Below, in pieces: positions 1,566-20,242 of a DNA stretch of 38,267 bases (the first letter of the stretch is position 1; every line of letters starts with the position of its first letter). The position numbers and the translations under genes are program-made. The stretch is from Natrialba taiwanensis DSM 12281 (GTDB lineage Archaea > Halobacteriota > Halobacteria > Halobacteriales > Natrialbaceae): assembly GCF_000337595.1 (NCBI RefSeq), contig NZ_AOIL01000009.1, positions 73,396 through 111,662 on the forward strand, given 5' to 3'. The notes beneath the pieces were generated by a model. That model had not been told where the DNA came from and did not search any database. It worked only from the letters and a program-made list of their open reading frames with translations.

Positions 1566-2195
1566 GTCATACCCTCGTACTGCGAACCCGGCTAAAGGAT
1601 GGTGGTGTTGTTTGCTCCTCAGAGAGGTGAGAGGATCCGACGATGTCAGAGACTGCTTGCACTGTTGAGTCACTGACGCCACAACAACGCCTCGAGTCGC
1701 TCGAATCCCCCGCTCATTGACACGGGAATCGCGATGACCATCGGTATGGAGACTCTTCGATCATGTGTCGCCTACGAAACCCAGTACCAACAACGCCTTT
1801 CGTTCCTCAACCAGATTGCCCGGCGAGCAGAGAAACTCCGTGAGGAGAGCAGACTCACTCAGTGGCCGTGCAGTGTGAGAATCAGCTGACCAGCGGGTAC
1901 GGCGTCACTACGCATCCCACGTCGCCGGTTGGAACGTCCTTTCCACCGAGTGACCTATATAGTGAACTAGGACTGTAATCGCTCAATGAGCCCGATTCAG
2001 TCACGTGAGTAGACCTGATGCTATTAGGTCGTTGTTATGATTGCCGTGAGCATGATAATACTCCCCGCAATCTCACTCATAGGTTGTAATTTCTGTTGAA
2101 TTTAGTACTCCCTATAGATGCTACTTATCGAATACCGAACATGTATTCATTACTAAACGAATACCTACCCAGTGGACATAGCGAGTGGTTCGACT
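1566..2195. other. Intergenic region with a small ORF remnant
   Basis: Only scraps of coding sequence are seen. A 51-codon plus-strand ORF at 1734-1889 (MTIGMETLRSCVAYETQYQQ...) is helical, Arg/Glu-rich and may be the tail of a lost gene; no family was recognised. The part from about 1926 on is not random: it aligns with the sequence upstream of the second subtilase at 7889-8159. Confidence 0.5.
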
Positions 2196-3437
2196 ATGAC
2201 CAACCCAACTGAAACGCGACTCAAGACACGCATTGGACGACGATCGTACCTCCGAGCAGCTGCCACGGCAGGAATCGCCGGTGCAGCACTTGGAAGCATC
2301 GGAACGGCTGCGGCACAGGACGACGCAGAGGCGACGAGCCAGTACAACGTCGGCCACGAGACCGAGGCAGGAAGAGCGCATGCGAGAGATATCGCGCTGG
2401 AAGTTCACCACGAGTTCGAAGCGCTGGATATCACCACGGTCGAAGTTACAGAGAGCGACCTCGACGCCCTCGGTGACCATGAGGATATTCGATTCGTCGA
2501 AGAGAACATCGAGCGGAGCCTCGATCTCCCTGACACCGATCCTGACAACCAAATACAAGAGGAACTCGAAGCCGAGCAATGGAAGCCCTGGGGAATCGAA
2601 CGAGTTGGTGCGCTTGCGGCGCACGAACGAGATGAGACCGGGTGTGGCGTCCACGTTGCGGTCATCGATACCGGCATCGACCCCACGCACGAGGACCTGC
2701 ATGCCAACATCGGCGAGGGTGTTGCCTTCGTCGAGACCACGGCCGAGAGCGATGAAGCGTGGGCCGATGACGACGGCCACGGCACGCACGTCTCGGGGAC
2801 GATCGCCGCAGTCGATAACGACTTTGGAGTCGTCGGCATGAGTCCATCCGCGACGCTCCATCCGGTGAAGGTGCTCGATAACCAGGGAACTGGAACCGAT
2901 GCGGACATAGCTGCTGGTATCATGCATGCGGCACGAAAAGGCTACGACATCGCCAATCTTAGCGTGGGCGAACCAGAGACAACGCAGACACAAACCGAGG
3001 CTGTCAAGTTCGCTCACGAGGAGGGGCTCCTGCTCGTTGCGGCGACTGGGAATGACGGTCACCCGCCGGTGGACTACCCTGCGGACCTCGATGAAGTGAT
3101 TGGTGTAAGTGCGATCGCGAAAGACGATTCGCTTGCATCGTTTTCGAACACGGGCCCCGAAGTGAACCTGACCGCTCCTGGTACTCTCGTGCTATCGACG
3201 ATGCCTGGAAATCAGTATGGGGTCATGGAAGGCACCTCGATGGCAACACCGCACGTGACGGGTTCGGCAGCGTTGCTGGCCGCACATGGCCTCTCTAACG
3301 ATGAAATCCGCGAACTCCTCACCGCATCCGCAGAAAACATCGGACTTGGGCCCGACCAGCAAGGGTCCGGGCTTGTCAACGCGAATGCTGCCCTCGAGGA
3401 GGTCGAGAAACTGGAAGGAAAGGCACTGGCCAAGTAA
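2196..3437 (+). CDS. Tat-exported subtilisin-like serine protease (halolysin-like), copy A
   Basis: A 413-aa S8-family peptidase. It has a twin-arginine signal (GRRSYLRAAATAGIAGAALG, residues 14-33, cleavage near AAA-QDD), a short propeptide of inhibitor-I9 type (about 45-125) and the catalytic domain. The predicted triad is D158 in VAVIDTG, H195 in GHGTHVSGT and S348 in GTSMATPHVTG, with oxyanion N286 in VAATGND. It should fold in the cytoplasm and act outside the cell. It ends soon after the catalytic domain, without the C-terminal extension of classical halolysins. A GTG at 2172 is in frame, but alignment with copy B puts the start at ATG 2196. Its paralogue is 8160-9401, with the same length and the same residue positions. 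Confidence 0.95.
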   Translation: MTNPTETRLKTRIGRRSYLRAAATAGIAGAALGSIGTAAAQDDAEATSQYNVGHETEAGRAHARDIALEVHHEFEALDITTVEVTESDLDALGDHEDIRFVEENIERSLDLPDTDPDNQIQEELEAEQWKPWGIERVGALAAHERDETGCGVHVAVIDTGIDPTHEDLHANIGEGVAFVETTAESDEAWADDDGHGTHVSGTIAAVDNDFGVVGMSPSATLHPVKVLDNQGTGTDADIAAGIMHAARKGYDIANLSVGEPETTQTQTEAVKFAHEEGLLLVAATGNDGHPPVDYPADLDEVIGVSAIAKDDSLASFSNTGPEVNLTAPGTLVLSTMPGNQYGVMEGTSMATPHVTGSAALLAAHGLSNDEIRELLTASAENIGLGPDQQGSGLVNANAALEEVEKLEGKALAK

Positions 3438-8159: not shown

Positions 8160-9401
8160 ATGGACCAACCACCTGAAACGCAATTCGAAACACGTGTTAG
8201 ACGACGGTCATATCTCCGAACAGCTACCACAGCAGGAATCGCAAGTGTAGCACTTGGAAGCATCGGAACGGCTGCAGCACAAGACGACACAGAGACGACG
8301 CGTCAGTATAATGTCGGCCATGAGACTGAGGTAGGAAGAGAACACGCGAGAGATGTTGCGGTGGAGGTACACCACGAGTTCGAAGCGCTGGATATCACCA
8401 CGGTCGAAGTCGCAAAGAGCAACCTCGATGCCCTTGATGACCATGAGGATATCCGGTTCGTCGAAGCGAACGCCGCGCAGAGTATCGATCTCCCTGACAT
8501 CGATCCTGACCACCAACTGCCAGAGGAACTCGAAGTCGAGCAATGGAACCGCTGGGGAATCGAACGAGTTGGTGCTCTTGCTGCACACGAACTCGGCGAG
8601 ACCGGGTGTGGCGTCCACGTGGGGGTCATCGATACTGGTATCGACCCCACGCACGAAGACCTACATGCCAACATCGGCGAGGGTGTTGCCTTCGTTGAGA
8701 CCACAGTAGAGAGCAGTGAAGAGTGGGCCGATGACTTCGGCCACGGCACGCACGTGTCGGGGACGATCGCAGCACTCGATAACGACATCGGGGTCGTCGG
8801 TGTGAGTCCATCCGCAACGCTCCATCCGGTGAAGGTGCTCGATAACCAGGGAACGGGAACCGATGCGGATATCGCTGCTGGGATCGAGTACGCGGCACGC
8901 CAAGGCTATGATGTCGCCAATATCAGCGTGACCGAACAGGAGACATCGCAGACACAGACTGAAGCTGTACGGTTCGCCCACAAGGAGGGGCTCTTGCTCG
9001 TTGCAGCGACGGGCAACGAGGGCCTCCCGAAGGTGGACTACCCTGCGGCACACAAGGAAGTGATCGGTGTGGGTGCGATCGCGCAAGACGATTCGCTCGC
9101 ATCGTTTTCGAACACGGGCTCGGAAGTGAACCTGGCCGCTCCAGGGACCGCTGTGTTATCGACGATTCCTGGCAGTCAGTATGGAGTCATGGAAGGTACT
9201 TCGATGGCGACGCCGCACGTGACTGGTTCGGCAGCGTTGCTGGCCGCACATGGCCTCGCTATCGATGAAATCCGCGAACTCCTCACCACGTCCGCAGAAG
9301 ACGTTAGCCTCGCGCCCGACCAGCAAGGATCCGGGCTTGTCAACGCGAGTACTGCCACCGAGGAACTCGAGAGACTGGAAGGAAAGGCACTGGCCAAGTA
9401 A
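8160..9401 (+). CDS. Tat-exported subtilisin-like serine protease (halolysin-like), copy B
   Basis: A paralogue of the protease at 2196-3437, also 413 aa. The Tat signal is RRRSYLRTATTAGIASVALG (14-33) with cleavage near AAA-QDD. The propeptide is present and the catalytic residues occupy the same positions: D158 in VGVIDTG, H195 in GHGTHVSGT, N286 in VAATGNE and S348 in GTSMATPHVTG. Differences are spread over the whole protein, many conservative, and the frame is intact, which suggests both copies are or recently were functional rather than one being a fresh or dead copy. The propeptide and the region 180-260 vary most. A leader of 270 bp is also shared with copy A, so the two may share regulation. 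Confidence 0.95.
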   Translation: MDQPPETQFETRVRRRSYLRTATTAGIASVALGSIGTAAAQDDTETTRQYNVGHETEVGREHARDVAVEVHHEFEALDITTVEVAKSNLDALDDHEDIRFVEANAAQSIDLPDIDPDHQLPEELEVEQWNRWGIERVGALAAHELGETGCGVHVGVIDTGIDPTHEDLHANIGEGVAFVETTVESSEEWADDFGHGTHVSGTIAALDNDIGVVGVSPSATLHPVKVLDNQGTGTDADIAAGIEYAARQGYDVANISVTEQETSQTQTEAVRFAHKEGLLLVAATGNEGLPKVDYPAAHKEVIGVGAIAQDDSLASFSNTGSEVNLAAPGTAVLSTIPGSQYGVMEGTSMATPHVTGSAALLAAHGLAIDEIRELLTTSAEDVSLAPDQQGSGLVNASTATEELERLEGKALAK

Positions 9402-12965: not shown

Positions 12966-13412
12966 TCAGGACGGCGTACTGAACTCGTCGAACAGTGCAA
13001 TGACTCGCTGTTCGATTTCATCACGGATCTCGCGTACTCGGTCGAAATCCTTTCCATCGGGATCTGCAAGCGCCCAATCACGGACGTCGACGGCTTCGCC
13101 AACGTCGCCGACGTCGAGTGTCGAACAGCCCATCGTGGCGACGTAGTCGCAGGACTGCAGTTCGTCGATCGTGATTTCACGGGGCGTTCGATCGGAGAGG
13201 TCGAATCCCGCTTCGTCCATTACCTCGATTACTCCCTCGTGGACGTGGTCGGCCGGATGGGTCCCGCCGGTGAGGATTTCGACGCGGTCGGAGAGACCAC
13301 GGCGGTCCCGTTCGCGCTCTGCAAAGGCCGTGGACATCTGGGAGCGGCCGGCGTTCTGGACGCACATGAAGGCGATACGGATCGGGTCGTCTGAAGCGCT
13401 GTTAGTGGACAT
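12966..13412 (-). CDS. arsC: Arsenate reductase, LMW-protein-tyrosine-phosphatase type
   Basis: A 148-aa protein with the CX5R active-site loop CVQNAGRS (C17-S24) near the N-terminus, as in low-molecular-weight phosphatases and the thioredoxin-coupled arsenate reductases. Two further cysteines, C88 (LQSCDYVATM) and C96 (MGCSTLD), sit about where the resolving pair of Staphylococcus ArsC lies, supporting reduction of arsenate to arsenite rather than phosphatase activity. The frame is open 60 codons upstream, but that part lies over acr3, and ATG 13412 (MSTNSASDDPIRIAF) is the family start. It follows acr3 after 13 bp, the last gene of the arsR-acr3-arsC unit, and supplies arsenite to Acr3 and ArsA. 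Confidence 0.9.
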   Translation of the reverse strand: MSTNSASDDPIRIAFMCVQNAGRSQMSTAFAERERDRRGLSDRVEILTGGTHPADHVHEGVIEVMDEAGFDLSDRTPREITIDELQSCDYVATMGCSTLDVGDVGEAVDVRDWALADPDGKDFDRVREIRDEIEQRVIALFDEFSTPS

Positions 13413-13425
13413 GATTGTCGTATGG

Positions 13426-14586
13426 TTAATCGTTGGCTGCTGGATCGGGCGCTGATGCATCGAGACTGCCGGTATTAGATCCACTCCAGTCAAATTTCCG
13501 CTGGAAGTACAGGGAGACATTGACCAACGCAAGTAGGACCGGGACCTCGATGAGCGGACCGACGACGGTCGCGAACGCGACGCCAGAACCGACACCGAAC
13601 ACGGCGACTGCGACCGCGATTGCTAACTCGAAGTTGTTCGAGGCAGCCGTGAATCCAATCGCGGTCGTCGTCGAGTAGTCCGCGCCGATACCGCGGCCCA
13701 TCCCGAAGCTCACGAGGAACATCACGACGAAGTAGATCGTCAGCGGAACGGCGATCAACAAGACGTCACCCGGCGAGGCGACTATGTTCTCCCCCTGCGT
13801 GGCGAACATGACGATTACGGTAAACAGCAATGCAACGAGGGTGAGGGGATCGATTTTCGGGATGAACTCCTCATCGTACCACTCCTCACTCTTTTTTCGA
13901 GTGGCGACGTAGCGGGTAAGGAAGCCGCCGGCAAACGGAATCCCGAGGAAGATGACGATCGCTTTGAATACGTCCCACGGCGTGATCTCGAAGGTCGTAA
14001 TCCCGGTGACAAGCGCGTCCATGCCGAGCAGCGGCGGGAGGAACAACGCGAAGAACCAGACGTACACCCCGTACGTAATGATCTGGAAGAGGCTGTTAAA
14101 CGCGACCAGGCCAGTCACGTACTCGGTCGAGCCCTCAGCGAGTTCGTTCCAAACGAGCACCATCGCGATACACCGGGCCATCCCGATAAACACGAGTCCG
14201 AGGAAGAACTCGGGGCGGGCCGGAAGACCGGGGACAAGCCCGCTGAAGAAGATCACCGCGAGCCCGAACATGAGAGTTGGGCCGATGAGCCAGTTCTGGA
14301 CGAGACTGAGCCCGAGCACTCGCCAGTTACTGAACACCGCCCGGAGCTGCGAATAATCGGCTTTCGCCAGCGGCGGATACATCATCAGTACCAACCCGAT
14401 CTCCACGAAGTGGAGGTTCTGAATCGGCTCGGTGACCGACGGGGCGACATAGCCCAATCCCACACCGATTGCCATCGCGGCGAAGATCCAGACGGTGAGA
14501 TACTTATCGAGGAAATCCATCGACCGCGGGCCCCCACAATCTGGACAGTCGCAGTTCGGGCCGTGTTCGTGTTCGACGTTACTCAT
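13426..14586 (-). CDS. acr3: Arsenite efflux transporter Acr3
   Basis: A 386-aa secondary arsenite exporter of the BART superfamily with about ten membrane helices. The conserved Cys in helix four is C139 (GMARCIAMVLVWNELAEG), needed for arsenite transport in characterised Acr3 proteins. Other family stretches are visible, such as GLVAFNSLFQIITYGVYVWF and the late TAIGFTAASNNFELAIAVAV region. The cytoplasmic N-terminus has an additional CDCPDC cluster (C12, C14, C17) that could bind arsenite or another metal. ATG 14586 overlaps the end of arsR by eight bases. GTG 14589 is also possible. Confidence 0.93.
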   Translation of the reverse strand: MSNVEHEHGPNCDCPDCGGPRSMDFLDKYLTVWIFAAMAIGVGLGYVAPSVTEPIQNLHFVEIGLVLMMYPPLAKADYSQLRAVFSNWRVLGLSLVQNWLIGPTLMFGLAVIFFSGLVPGLPARPEFFLGLVFIGMARCIAMVLVWNELAEGSTEYVTGLVAFNSLFQIITYGVYVWFFALFLPPLLGMDALVTGITTFEITPWDVFKAIVIFLGIPFAGGFLTRYVATRKKSEEWYDEEFIPKIDPLTLVALLFTVIVMFATQGENIVASPGDVLLIAVPLTIYFVVMFLVSFGMGRGIGADYSTTTAIGFTAASNNFELAIAVAVAVFGVGSGVAFATVVGPLIEVPVLLALVNVSLYFQRKFDWSGSNTGSLDASAPDPAAND

Positions 14587-14980
14587 CACCGTTCACGCTC
14601 CCTTCGAGGACCGTGACGAGTGCTATCGCACGATTGGTTGCCCGGTACTTCTTCCAGCGCCCGTCCTTCCGGCCGTCGACGAGACCCGCATCGACGAGTT
14701 TCGAGAGGGCGTGACTGAGACCGCTCTCGGTCACGTCAACGACTGCGTTCAACTCGCAAACGCAGAGTTCCTCCTGTGCCGCAACCAGTACGCGCACGAG
14801 CGTGTAGCGCGTCTCGTTACCGAGTGCCGAGAGGACATCGAGTTCGGCTTCGGCCTGTGCCGTCCCGAGTCCCGCCTCGAGCGTCCCTAACTCGTCGAGT
14901 CGACGCTCGATATCCTCGCTCCGACACTCTTCGAGTTCGTCATCGAGATAGCGTCGAAGCCGTTCCGTCGATTGTGCCAT
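14579..14980 (-). CDS. arsR: ArsR-family arsenite-responsive repressor
   Basis: A 133-aa winged-helix regulator. The metalloid site is ELCVCEL (C73, C75), the CxC of ArsR in its alpha-3 region; the recognition helix is TESGLSHALSKLVDAG and the wing VDGRKDGRWKKYRA. It has a 45-aa acidic N-terminal extension (MAQSTERLRRYLDDELEECR...) common in haloarchaeal members. The frame is open to 15073, but ATG 14980 lies 30 nt from a good TATA element, which supports a leaderless start there. It heads the minus-strand ars unit and diverges from arsDA, where a perfect palindrome is a likely binding site. Arsenite binding should release it from DNA. Confidence 0.9.
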   Translation of the reverse strand: MAQSTERLRRYLDDELEECRSEDIERRLDELGTLEAGLGTAQAEAELDVLSALGNETRYTLVRVLVAAQEELCVCELNAVVDVTESGLSHALSKLVDAGLVDGRKDGRWKKYRATNRAIALVTVLEGSVNGDE

Positions 14981-15004
14981 CGAAAACGACTTGACCATCT
15001 TCTC

Positions 15005-15010
15005 AATTAA
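15005..15010 (-). promoter_or_regulatory. TATA box of arsR
   Basis: The minus strand reads TTAATT with its centre about 27 nt before ATG 14980, which supports that start over the longer frame. Confidence 0.55.
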
Positions 15011-15129
15011 CTCTTCCGGATAATCCACGAGAGAATGCGTCGAGAAGACACTGTATTCACCCCACACCAACATACGACCGGCTTAGAGCTCATACAACAC
15101 GGTGATCGTTTTGGGATCCGACCAAAGGA

Positions 15130-15234: not shown

Positions 15235-15564
15235 ATGAACGAACTTACACTATACGAAGAGGCGATGTGTTGTGCAACCGGTATCTGCGGTCCCGACCCC
15301 GACGATGAACTCGTCGCGGTCAGCGCCGCGCTCGACCAGCTCGAAGACGAGTTCGATGTCGAAGTGACGAGAGCAAACATGCAACACGATATCGACCAGT
15401 TTCTCGAGACCCAGCGTATCTACGATCTGGTGCAGGAACACGGCCCGTCGATTCTCCCGATCACGGTCCTCGACGGCGAAATAGTCGCCAAATCGGAGTA
15501 CCCCTCTTACGACGAGCTCACAGCCGAACTGACCCGCAACCGGAACCAGTCGCAGGAGGCCTGA
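15235..15564 (+). CDS. arsD: Arsenite metallochaperone ArsD
   Basis: A 109-aa thioredoxin-fold protein with C12, C13 and C18 in MCCATGICGPD, exactly the three cysteines used by E. coli ArsD to bind As(III) and hand it to ArsA. The rest follows the family: DELVAVSAALDQLEDEFDVE, HDIDQFLETQRIYDLV, GPSILPITVLDGEIV. The C-terminal vicinal Cys pairs of the E. coli protein are absent, as in most ArsD. It is first in the plus-strand unit, and its stop is 3 bp before the arsA start. Confidence 0.93.
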   Translation: MNELTLYEEAMCCATGICGPDPDDELVAVSAALDQLEDEFDVEVTRANMQHDIDQFLETQRIYDLVQEHGPSILPITVLDGEIVAKSEYPSYDELTAELTRNRNQSQEA

Positions 15565-15567
15565 TCG

Positions 15568-17493
15568 ATGGGTGAACGAACCGCACCTCGAGAACTCGTC
15601 GAGCCGAGTGGTGAAGACACCGAGTTCGTCTTCTTTAGCGGGAAAGGCGGCGTCGGCAAGAGCACGGTCAGCTGTGCCACTGCGACGTGGCTGGCAGACA
15701 ACGGCTACGAGACGCTGCTGGTAACGACCGATCCTGCGCCGAACCTCTCTGATATCTTCGGCCAGCAAATCGGCCACGATGTGACCGAAATCGACGATAT
15801 CGAGCGTCTGTCGGCCATCGAAATCGATCCCGACACGGCGGCCGAAGAGTACCGACAGGAGACGATCGAGCCGATGCGTGAACTGCTCGATGACGAACAG
15901 CTCGAAACGGTCGAAGAGCAACTCAACAGTCCCTGCGTCGAGGAGATTGCTGCGTTCGACAATTTCGTCGACTTCATGGACAGCCCGGCGTACGACGCGG
16001 TCGTCTTCGACACCGCCCCGACCGGCCACACGATCCGGTTGATGGAGCTGCCATCCGACTGGAACGCCGAGCTCGAGAAGGGCGGATCGACGTGTATCGG
16101 CCCTGCCGCCTCGATGGAGGACAGAAAGGCCCAGTACGAGCGGGCCATCGACACGCTGCAGGACGCTGAGCGGACCTCCTTCGCCTTCGTTGGGAAACCC
16201 GAGGACAGTTCGATAGACGAAATCGAACGCAGCGCGGACGATCTCGGTGAACTCGGCATCGAGTCACAGTTACTCGTCGTCAATGGCTACCTCCCGGAAA
16301 CGGTCTGTGACGATCCCTTCTTCGAGGGGAAACGCGAGGACGAGCGGACGGTCATCGACCGCGTTGAGAGCGAGTTTTCGGAGGAGGCGATTGCGACCTA
16401 TCCGCTCCAGCCCGGCGAAATCACCGGTATCGATCTGCTGTCCGACGTCGCTGGCGTCATCTACGACGGAGCGGAAGCGACCGTCAACGTCGGCTCGACG
16501 AGCGAGACTGACGCGGGAAGCGCTATCGACTTCGACTCGCTGGCCGATTCCGACGCCGTCGCCGAACAGCTACAGCCGGTCGACGGCACCCGGTATCTAT
16601 TCTTCACCGGGAAAGGCGGCGTCGGCAAGAGCACGGTTGCTGCGACGACCGCCACGAAACTCGCCGAAAGCGGCTACGAGACGCTGATCGTGACTACCGA
16701 CCCGGCCGCCCACCTGACGGACATTTTCGGTGAGACGGTCGGCCACGAACCTACCTCAGTGAGCCAGGCGAACCTCGACGCGGCTCGAATCGATCAAGCT
16801 CAGGCCCTCGAGGAGTACCGCACGCAGGTCCTCGATCACGTCACCGAGATGTACGAGGACAAAGACGATACCGAGATCGACGTCGAGGCGGCCATCTCCA
16901 ACGTAGAGGAGGAGTTGGAGTCGCCGTGTGCCGAGGAGATGGCGGCCCTCGAGAAGTTCGTCAGCTACTTCGAGGAGGACGGCTACGATGTGGTCGTCTT
17001 CGACACCGCCCCGACCGGCCACACGCTCCGGCTATTAGAGCTCCCCTCCGACTGGAAGGGATTCATGGACCTGGGTTCGCTGACGAAAGGCGCAGCGCCG
17101 GAGAACGGCGACCAGTACGAGGAAGTCATCGAGACGATGCAAAACCCCGAGAAGAGTTCGTTTGCCTTCGTCATGTATCCCGAGTACACACCGATGATGG
17201 AGGCCCATCGGGCCGCCGAGGACCTCAAAGAGCAGGTCGGTATCGAAACCTCACTGGTCGTCGCGAACTATTTGCTGCCGGAGGAGTACGGAGACAACGA
17301 CTTCTTCGCGAACCGCCGCGCCCAACAGCAGCAGTACCTCGAGGAGATCAATGACCGGTTCGACGCGCCGATGATGCTGGCACCGCTGCGTCAGGATGAG
17401 CCGGTCGGACTGGCGGAACTCCACGCGTTCGGCGACGATCTCACTGGGCTCTCGGGAGTATTGAAGGAACAGAAGGGGGTGACGGTTTCATGA
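15568..17493 (+). CDS. arsA: Arsenite-activated ATPase ArsA (two-domain)
   Basis: A 641-aa tandem ATPase. Each half has a deviant Walker A GKGGVGKST (25-33 and 348-356) and the signal-transduction motif DTAPTGHT (148-155 and 479-486). The three metalloid-binding cysteines of E. coli ArsA have clear counterparts: C123 (NSPCVEE) and C176 (GSTCIGP) in the first half and C454 (ESPCAEE) in the second. The first half has DPAPNLSD where the second has DPAAHLTD. ArsA normally drives ArsB; here the exporter in the locus is Acr3, so it probably energises Acr3 or works with the downstream proteins. Its stop overlaps the next start as ATGA. Confidence 0.95.
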   Translation: MGERTAPRELVEPSGEDTEFVFFSGKGGVGKSTVSCATATWLADNGYETLLVTTDPAPNLSDIFGQQIGHDVTEIDDIERLSAIEIDPDTAAEEYRQETIEPMRELLDDEQLETVEEQLNSPCVEEIAAFDNFVDFMDSPAYDAVVFDTAPTGHTIRLMELPSDWNAELEKGGSTCIGPAASMEDRKAQYERAIDTLQDAERTSFAFVGKPEDSSIDEIERSADDLGELGIESQLLVVNGYLPETVCDDPFFEGKREDERTVIDRVESEFSEEAIATYPLQPGEITGIDLLSDVAGVIYDGAEATVNVGSTSETDAGSAIDFDSLADSDAVAEQLQPVDGTRYLFFTGKGGVGKSTVAATTATKLAESGYETLIVTTDPAAHLTDIFGETVGHEPTSVSQANLDAARIDQAQALEEYRTQVLDHVTEMYEDKDDTEIDVEAAISNVEEELESPCAEEMAALEKFVSYFEEDGYDVVVFDTAPTGHTLRLLELPSDWKGFMDLGSLTKGAAPENGDQYEEVIETMQNPEKSSFAFVMYPEYTPMMEAHRAAEDLKEQVGIETSLVVANYLLPEEYGDNDFFANRRAQQQQYLEEINDRFDAPMMLAPLRQDEPVGLAELHAFGDDLTGLSGVLKEQKGVTVS

Positions 17494-17858
17494 GCGAAAT
17501 TCAATCTGCGGACGCAGCTGTCGAGGCGAAACTCCAGGCGTTCGTGGAGACACTCAAAGAGTCTTCGACCTATCAGGAGTTCACCGAGGCCAGCGAGGCG
17601 CTCGAGAACGACACGAAGGCAATGGCGCTGCTCCAGGAATTCCAACAGAAACAGAAACGAATGCAACGCGGCGGCTTTGACCAATCGCTTATGAGCGAGC
17701 TTCGAGACCTCAAGTCAGAGATGTCGACCAACGAGACCATTCAGCGACACCAAGCCGCCCAGGAGGAGGTTGTAGAACTCCTCCAGGAGACCAACGACGT
17801 GATCAGCGAACAGATCGATCGGGAGTTCGCCCAGTCAATCGGAGGTGAGTGCTGTTGA
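17490..17858 (+). CDS. YlbF-like small protein ending in Cys-Cys (halo-CC-star type, large)
   Basis: A 122-aa all-helical, very acidic protein of the YlbF/YmcA class (KLQAFVETLKESSTYQEFTE, LQEFQQKQKRMQRG), with the only cysteines in the terminal GGECC. It overlaps arsA by four bases (ATGA), so it is translationally coupled. I recall a database family called halo-CC-star HcsL for such proteins, but could not check it. A terminal vicinal Cys pair is well suited to binding As(III), so an accessory chaperone or sensor for ArsA is the best inference; a role in RNA or complex assembly, as for bacterial YlbF/YmcA, is the alternative. The GGAGGTGA encoding Gly-Gly-Glu is also the Shine-Dalgarno site of the next gene. 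Confidence 0.78.
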   Translation: MSEIQSADAAVEAKLQAFVETLKESSTYQEFTEASEALENDTKAMALLQEFQQKQKRMQRGGFDQSLMSELRDLKSEMSTNETIQRHQAAQEEVVELLQETNDVISEQIDREFAQSIGGECC

Positions 17859-18031
17859 GCGAAACCGACGAAGCCGTGCTGGCTGCCGCCGAAGCACTCG
17901 GAGAAGAACTCGCCGACACGCAGTCGACCTCGGCGGAATTTGAAACGGTGCTGAGACAGTGCAACGAAACGATCAGTCAGGAGATCGGGATCCAGTACGG
18001 CGACGCCTGCGGGGCGGGTGACTGCTGTTGA
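17855..18031 (+). CDS. Small YlbF-like protein ending in Cys-Cys (halo-CC-star type, small)
   Basis: A 58-aa acidic helical protein, TTG-started: MSETDEAVLAAAEALGEELA then a helix VLRQCNETISQEIGIQ and the tail ACGAGDCC. Cysteines are C36, C52, C57 and C58. The start overlaps the previous stop as TTGA, and GGAGGTGA (17841-17848) lies six bases before it, which favours TTG 17855 over GTG 17849, the latter touching that site. It looks like a shortened paralogue of the preceding protein, with the same Cys-Cys end, and the two probably act as a pair with ArsD and ArsA. It matches what I recall as HcsS. It is the last gene of the unit. Confidence 0.72.
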   Translation: MSETDEAVLAAAEALGEELADTQSTSAEFETVLRQCNETISQEIGIQYGDACGAGDCC

Positions 18032-18178
18032 CCGTCATCCCGTGACCGAGTAGCCGGCGATCATCTAATTTTCTGCTCCGAAATGGAGAGAAAAAGACCG
18101 GTGCGGCTCGCCGGACAGCGTCGTGGCGACTTCAAAACTCGACACCGTCTGCTCCCCCGACAGAAGAACTAATGCTCC

Positions 18179-18206
18179 ACAGCACGAGTGCTGTACTGGG
18201 TTTACG
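18179..18206 (+). promoter_or_regulatory. Palindrome and TATA-like element before the cupin gene
   Basis: Arms ACAGCAC and GTGCTGT around GA (18179-18194) form a perfect inverted repeat, followed by a TTTACG element (18201-18206) about 20 nt before ATG 18223. The site would suit a dimeric regulator acting at BRE/TATA. Confidence 0.5.
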
Positions 18207-18222
18207 AACCGGGGACATCACA

Positions 18223-18591
18223 ATGGCTGATTCCAACACAACAGCGTACCACCCGTTCATCGAAAGAGAGGCAGCAGGCGAACACACCATCCTCGAAGAT
18301 TGTGAGATCGACGCACGGACTCACGAGTCGGACAAGGCCAGTGAACTCCACACGCACGATGAAACCCACATCATCTTCATGCGGACAGGAGAAATGTACT
18401 GGGAAGTTGGTGACGAGGGGTTCCATGCCACGCCCGGTGACACGATCGTTACGCCGCCAGACACCGAGCACAAATTCGAGGTGGTCGGGGACGAACCATC
18501 GAAGACGTTGTGTTTGATCGCACCCGCTCGCCCAACCGAGGATCAGGGCCCATCTGGCACACACGAAATCACCAAACCCGACGATATTTGA
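18223..18591 (+). CDS. Cupin-domain protein
   Basis: A 122-aa single cupin. Motif 1 is ELHTHDETHIIFMRTGEMYW (His, His and Glu/His metal ligands in the HxH-x3-4 pattern) and motif 2 is TPGDTIVTPPDTEHKFEVVG, ending with the late His. The core is a small metal-binding beta barrel; activities in this class range from isomerases and dioxygenases to non-enzymatic binders. The ATG at 18172 is in frame, but the intervening region holds the palindrome and TATA, so 18223 is chosen. It lies 190 bp after the ars unit and is probably independently transcribed. Confidence 0.85.
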   Translation: MADSNTTAYHPFIEREAAGEHTILEDCEIDARTHESDKASELHTHDETHIIFMRTGEMYWEVGDEGFHATPGDTIVTPPDTEHKFEVVGDEPSKTLCLIAPARPTEDQGPSGTHEITKPDDI

Positions 18592-19791: not shown

Positions 19792-20242
19792 CTAGTTGCC
19801 GGTTCTCTTAACAGGGTATTCATCAATGGCCACCCGCGGTAGCATCGCCGTCTGCAGAACGCTCCGCGTTCTGCTGTCGAGGCGAATCCGAGCTCGCCGA
19901 ACATTGGAGAACGAAATTCTCCAAATGGCCGCACAAGAGCACTGTTCCCGTGGGCGTCGGCGGGTCTGGAACACTAGCAGTGAATCGATGTATAGAGTGC
20001 CAGATTGCTTGGTGAGAGCGTTTTATGCCAACCAAGCGAAGAAGAGCATGTATCGCTCGGAGCGGACAACCGGTCGCGTGTAGCCGGATAACGAATACCT
20101 TGGCGGGGGTTACTGTCCTCTCACGCTTGCACAACTCGACAGATTTCGCCGCGTCACACTCACTGAGCAGGTCTGCGAACGGCCTGACCAAACTAGCACT
20201 CCCACCTGCTCGCTTCTCAAACTGGCCGACATAGACGGTGCC
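19792..20242 (-). mobile_element. IS6-family element remnant, second copy
   Basis: The minus-strand transposase frame 20191-19823 runs from FADLLSECDAAKS through FVIRLHATGCPLRAIHALLR and IKRSHQAIWHSIHRFTAS to SVPDPPTPTG. It then hits inserted hairpin sequence and continues in another frame as RVAIDEYPVKRTGN, around the first catalytic Asp, before ending near 19792. The terminal repeat is at 20225-20242 (inward GGCACCGTCTATG). The distal part with the other catalytic residues is missing. The architecture matches the remnant at 1-453. Confidence 0.85.
19854..19952. repeat. Hairpin cluster inside the second IS6 remnant
   Basis: 19854-19874 is a perfect hairpin with 9-bp arms GCAGAACGC/GCGTTCTGC and loop TCC. 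19904-19924 has arms TTGGAGAAC and ATTCTCCAA around GAA, one mismatch. 19932-19952 (CACAAGAGC, ACT, GTTCCCGTG) is a degenerate match, six of nine pairs, to the perfect hairpin at 172-192. The insertion point in the transposase is the same as at 128-192. Confidence 0.75.

Follow-up and report, generated by a model that had tools for sequence, protein, structure and literature searches.

Among metalloid pumps, ArsDA is a textbook case. The bacterial arsRDABC and arsRDA-acr3 operons share with the haloarchaeal locus described here ArsR, ArsD and ArsA with intact As(III) sites; the haloarchaeal block differs from them in having two extra coupled subunits, and in the genomes that carry it no ArsB was found and Acr3 is often absent. 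In Halobacterium sp. NRC-1, deletion of the arsADRC cluster raises arsenite sensitivity and deletion of a chromosomal arsB homolog is without effect (PMC1447603; PMC3600143); from the latter result a novel arsenite pump was proposed by the authors (PMC1447603). The NRC-1 cluster is the same block as the one described here: in the current annotation the pNRC100 locus reads arsD-arsA-hcsL-hcsS, with hcsL and hcsS situated between arsA and arsR2-arsM, but the published gene names omit both.

HcsL and HcsS correspond to two NCBIfam families (halo-CC-star) that have been named only; a literature search for halo-CC-star, or for HcsL and HcsS together, found no paper. The closest described proteins are RicA (YmcA) and RicF (YlbF) of Bacillus subtilis, whose C-terminal cysteines, together with RicT, co-ligate a [4Fe-4S] cluster; without RicT, RicAF does not take up the cluster (PMC6751060). 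Both pairs consist of two small, related partners with disordered Cys tails, and HcsL is predicted to share the Ric fold. However, HcsS represents only about half of the domain, the vicinal cysteines lie at the extreme end of HcsL and HcsS, and the haloarchaeal pair is linked to arsDA. RicT (PSP1) was found in none of the 10 haloarchaeal genomes searched for it, including the genome described here. There is also a resemblance to ArsD, in that the CCx4C of ArsD and the Cx4CC of HcsS, which have mirror order, both combine vicinal cysteines with a third Cys and are encoded in the same operon; however, the ArsD fold differs from those of HcsL and HcsS, ArsD itself is also encoded alongside, and neither HcsL nor HcsS matches the ArsD domain (PF06953).

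The window, by which we mean the whole 38,267-nt stretch of Natrialba taiwanensis DSM 12281 that was analyzed, encodes on its forward strand ArsD (15235-15564), a putative As(III) metallochaperone with a CC-x4-C site (NF033727, 114 bits; match to structure 3ktb), followed by a two-domain arsenite ATPase of the ArsA_halo clade (15568-17493; NF041417, 1155 bits), HcsL (17490-17858; 122 aa) and HcsS (17855-18031; 58 aa, with a TTG start). On the reverse strand are genes for a divergent ArsR-family regulator (14579-15073; PF01022, E 8.2e-8), the arsenite efflux carrier Acr3 (13426-14589; TIGR00832, 380 bits) and a low-molecular-weight phosphatase family protein that is a probable arsenate reductase (12966-13595; PF01451, E 1.7e-28; start codon uncertain). 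The arsA stop and hcsL start overlap by 4 nt (ATGA), as do the hcsL stop and hcsS start (TTGA); an upstream GTG at 17849 is an alternative start for hcsS and is favored by the list of open reading frames. Among the gene calls within the window, HcsL and HcsS are the only proteins that end in Cys-Cys. Directly 3′ of hcsS is a gene for a cupin-domain protein (18172-18591), and a cupin-like gene is located 5′ of arsD in 11 further loci. A fragment resembling a transposase (19823-20191, reverse strand) lies close to the ars cluster and fits a mobile origin. Elsewhere in the window, the genes at 2172-3437 and 8160-9401 encode secreted proteins that resemble each other and have a twin-arginine-like start (RRSYLR...GSIGTAAAQDD), apparently as a result of duplication within the window.

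HcsL and HcsS of the window pass the curated NCBIfam cut-offs and are encoded in this same order behind arsA, which bears out the label halo-CC-star that the original prediction had given. HcsL covers the whole NF041416 profile (positions 1-113 of 113; 164.6 bits, cut-off 140) and also matches Com_YlbF (PF06133; 64.3 bits vs. a gathering score of 23.9, E 1.6e-17). By sequence profile, the closest solved structures are RicA, RicF and their kin (2pih, E 4.6e-10; 6prk, E 3.3e-9). One row taken from a plasmid record was excluded from structure modeling. An AF2 structure model of HcsL, built on a 52-sequence alignment, has a mean pLDDT of 89.4 and consists of five helices followed by a disordered tail (residues 119-122 below 50). 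A fold search with this model matched 6prk_A with a Z score of 12.0 (rmsd 1.7 over 108 residues; TM 0.77/0.81), and Ric-family structures ranked above unrelated helical proteins (Z 7.8 and below). A Z score of about 12 between helical proteins needs support from sequence, and the HcsL match has such support. Thus, profile and model both assign to HcsL the RicA/RicF (YmcA/YlbF) fold with a predicted flexible Cys-Cys tail. The tail (GGECC in the window) contains the only cysteines of the protein, as had been claimed. It reads GGGCC in 60 of 63 distinct loci, so that the Glu of the window is an outlier, and it stays conserved while HcsL sequences diverge by 43% on average.

HcsS of the window likewise covers its entire profile (NF041415, positions 1-55 of 55; 89.6 bits, cut-off 55), and a Pfam search with HcsS gave no match. 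Against the HcsL profile it aligned to positions 73-113 only (E 5.5e-6), and profile-profile comparison using hhalign related HcsS to HcsL with a probability of 95.9%. The idea that the two proteins are long and short versions of one YlbF-like fold therefore stands for HcsL but has to be modified for HcsS, which, judged by these alignments, is a shortened HcsL relative comprising about half of the domain (the C-terminal part), and not a whole short fold. In the AF2 model of HcsS, two long helices lead into a disordered tail, and the low confidence of the model (pLDDT 67.8) makes it too weak for a fold search. HcsS of the window has four cysteines (C36, C52, C57, and C58) and ends in ACGAGDCC, as predicted; across loci, one Cys is in the second helix, one is 7-9 residues from the end, and one is final. 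Conservation of the terminal cysteines, the lack of which would have refuted the original prediction, is thus seen in HcsL, but less strictly in HcsS: of 61 loci, 52 encode a protein that ends in CC, 8 have Ser, Gly or Asp at the penultimate position (SC, GC or DC), and 1 ends in CG.

Co-occurrence with ArsA, on which the original prediction had staked itself in advance, was pronounced in a sample of 391 Halobacteria genomes. HcsL (counted above about 130 bits) was identified in 67 genomes, ArsA_halo in 67 and HcsS in 71, and 65 genomes have all three. ArsA_halo is encoded directly upstream of 69 of the 73 HcsL genes, and HcsS directly downstream of 72; where HcsL lacks a full ArsA_halo match, ArsA remnants still adjoin it in the stretches examined. 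The coupling described for the window was confirmed at its coordinates and is retained elsewhere: arsA and hcsL overlap by 4 nt in 63 of 63 distinct loci (ATGA in 36, GTGA in 27), and of 62 loci, 59 have TTGA as the hcsL/hcsS overlap and the other 3 have TGATG. This coupling of arsA, hcsL and hcsS exceeds chance. Sequence distances also co-vary (r 0.68 for ArsA/HcsL; r 0.84 for HcsL/HcsS). In nearly every wide stretch, arsD-arsA-hcsL-hcsS forms a constant core with an ArsR gene alongside, around which arsM, an arsP-like permease, the phosphatase and acr3 vary from locus to locus. The tail is not a by-product of the TTGA overlap: TTGA was considered as the sole keeper of the terminal Cys codons and rejected, as these codons persist in loci that lack it (three in haloarchaea, plus L186 from outside Halobacteria), where the protein still ends in CC. 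Many of the loci are on plasmids, and searches for HcsL, ArsA_halo and HcsS showed the cassette to be absent from all six other genomes of the genus to which the window belongs.

Intact HcsL is missing from two genomes with ArsA_halo. In G246 (L110:5400-6900), an insertion of ~1.1 kb splits hcsL near profile position 70, and arsA and hcsS are intact. G129 (L109:2856-8644) has the most divergent ArsA_halo and neither HcsL nor HcsS; there, ArsA_halo adjoins a molybdopterin oxidoreductase-like protein and a 4Fe-4S subunit, and the locus is possibly one for arsenic respiration or oxidation.

A phylum-wide search identified two genomes outside Halobacteria (G455 and G576) with arsR-arsD-arsA-hcsL-hcsS-acr3 on a single strand, which shows that the pair is not purely haloarchaeal. 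In G576, ArsA scores 1143 bits (ArsA_halo), HcsL 100 bits and HcsS 54.9 bits; as the last two values fall below the respective cut-offs of 140 and 55, the NCBIfam models for HcsL and HcsS miss these non-haloarchaeal relatives. In both genomes HcsL ends in GGCC without a TTGA overlap, and HcsS ends in CDCGGKC. In the tree, their HcsL sequences group with haloarchaeal HcsL and are separated from YlbF proteins of chromosomal or other archaeal origin (support 98/90); together with the operons themselves, this indicates that the ars-linked clade is old and not bound to halophily. In one further, related genome, G633 (L199:5890-7213), two tandem hcsL-hcsS pairs have no ars genes nearby, and their tails read GGCY and GGCR; thus, away from ArsA, the pairing is kept but the vicinal thiol is lost. 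These tandem pairs lie near a flavodoxin/ferredoxin-like gene. Relatives of the pair were also sought in viral contigs, and none were found.

More than half of the haloarchaeal genomes encode a chromosomal YlbF paralog. The paralogs inspected (L114:5901-6302, L115-L120, and L174-L180) end in DFGxxxGGCC plus one to three residues, and their neighborhoods have no constant partner and no ars linkage; in some genomes (L114) a MinD/ParA-like ATPase follows the paralog. We therefore rejected the CC tail as proof of an arsenic function: GGCC is common to paralogs without ars neighbors, and so is a feature of the family and not an arsenic signature.

Positions 124, 177 and 455 of ArsA (numbered on the aligned open frame) are Cys in 60 of 60 loci, and we take them to be equivalent to C113, C172 and C422 of E. 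coli ArsA. The CCx4C of ArsD is conserved in 59 of 59 loci. By alignment, ArsA and ArsD thus retain all predicted As(III)-binding cysteines. The exporter is less constant. Acr3 adjoins about 8-9 of the haloarchaeal loci examined, including the window, and is encoded directly downstream of hcsS in the operons of G455 and G576. No ArsB family match was found in any of the 67 ArsA_halo genomes, and Acr3 above the curated cut-off is absent from 48 of them; in 19 of these 48, relaxing the threshold to 1e-5 still gave no Acr3 match, and in two (G177 and G015) Acr3 is present as broken or partial pieces. Being adjacent in few loci and absent at full length from 48 of 67 genomes, Acr3 is not a universal partner, and other transporters may serve instead. 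We do not use the depletion of Acr3 as an argument: across the class, Acr3 above the cut-off occurs in 19 of 67 ArsA_halo genomes vs. 189 of the 324 others (Fisher p 7.6e-6), but within genus g30 the trend is the opposite (7 of 25 genomes with ArsA_halo vs. 1 of 21 without), so that the depletion tracks lineage and is confounded. Acr3 of the window has an N-terminal HGPNCDCPDCG; the protein begins HEHGPNCDCPDCGGPRSMDF (near 14530-14589). The motif HGPxCxCxxCG is common to all nine Acr3 that adjoin haloarchaeal loci and is absent from Acr3 of L185 and L186; it is a possible metalloid acceptor.

HcsL and HcsS are members of named but uncharacterized families, and the system is a variant of ArsDA to which two subunits related to Ric proteins are added. 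Given the near-constant company of the ArsA ATPase and the likeness to a bacterial metal-cluster pair, they are probably overlooked arsenic-handling components of this pump. More specifically, we posit, with a likelihood that we put just short of even, that HcsL and HcsS serve ArsDA as dedicated accessory subunits: they would form a heterodimer of the Ric type, with tails whose thiols accept As(III) or pass it on at ArsA. HcsL would pair with HcsS as RicA does with RicF, and the flexible tails (the CC of HcsL and the C-x4..6-CC of HcsS) would converge into a thiolate site, with ArsA or ArsD occupying the place of RicT in the Bacillus complex. Docked on ArsA, this site would accept As(III) or Sb(III), which would then be relayed at ArsA, or the ATPase would be gated in response; the metalloid would exit by Acr3 where acr3 is linked, and elsewhere by some other carrier. 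In favor of this proposal are the co-occurrence and tight linkage with ArsA, the conserved 4-nt couplings, the co-varying distances, the operons of the same order outside Halobacteria, the fold match and cluster precedent of the Ric proteins, the invariant As(III) ligands of ArsA and ArsD, and the loss of the terminal CC in the ars-free pairs of G633. Counting against it are the GGCC of the unlinked paralogs, the variable penultimate Cys of HcsS, and the ArsA_halo of G129 that has neither protein; furthermore, ArsD already fills the role of chaperone, so that a second relay may be redundant. A bolder version, which we consider rather doubtful, is that ArsDA-HcsLS constitutes a distinct archaeal arsenite machine, in which a Ric-type thiol-tailed heterodimer stands in for the usual channel or forms a bridge to it.

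As the nearest solved relatives of HcsL ligate [4Fe-4S] through C-terminal Cys tails, the pair could instead be a Ric-like iron-sulfur unit that does not carry As(III): an Fe-S cluster held by the tails, jointly with ArsA, ArsD or some further protein, would sense redox state or arsenite and thereby tune expression or ArsA activity; the chromosomal GGCC paralogs suggest, moreover, that the ancestral ligand may not have been arsenic. The absence of RicT from the haloarchaeal genomes tested, given that RicAF alone takes up no cluster, makes this unlikely, as does the fact that the only constant partners of the pair are arsenic-handling proteins. A regulatory role is less probable still: HcsL-HcsS might act on ars genes post-transcriptionally or transcriptionally, much as the Ric complex does together with RNase Y, in response to As(III) or to oxidation of the tails. 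The family offers a precedent in Bacillus (PMC6751060; PMC10470536), and a chromosomal haloarchaeal YlbF is up-regulated in aerial hyphae (PMC10067837). However, this reading also lacks the RicT partner, the block already includes an ArsR, and the strict coupling downstream of arsA points to stoichiometry with ArsA.

The inconstancy of the exporter bears on another reading, in which the pair is a structural linker: it would tie ArsA physically to an exporter in the membrane (Acr3, ArsP or another carrier), whose entry would be the docking site of the Cys tails. The position of hcsS between arsA and acr3 in two genomes, the lack of ArsB and frequent lack of full-length Acr3 noted above, and the CxCxxC motif at the N-terminus of adjoining Acr3 are in keeping with this role, and CstX has been proposed as a linker with other ArsA homologs (PMC2963123); yet neither HcsL nor HcsS has a membrane segment, and the type of neighboring transporter is inconstant and often there is none, such that a linker function seems improbable. 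Finally, the plasmid location of many loci and the absence of the cassette from other genomes of the genus might mean that hcsL and hcsS are passengers, linked to arsDA through the spread of one plasmid-borne cassette and without an arsenic role. This is very improbable, as the pair is conserved over many genera and outside Halobacteria even though the flanking ars genes vary, and the tail is kept despite the divergence of HcsL sequences.

The work on NRC-1 left open which pump ArsA serves, and two constant, translationally coupled subunits are obvious candidates for the missing part. The Ric fold offers a concrete model for an accessory role, in which two proteins jointly provide a thiol site that docks on an ATPase with a deviant Walker A. 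If the pair does handle As(III), the YlbF/YmcA family would reach from RNA processing to metal handling, with the tail chemistry reused; and if ArsDA-HcsLS is a distinct machine, it would explain ArsA-based arsenite resistance in haloarchaea whose genomes show neither ArsB nor Acr3.
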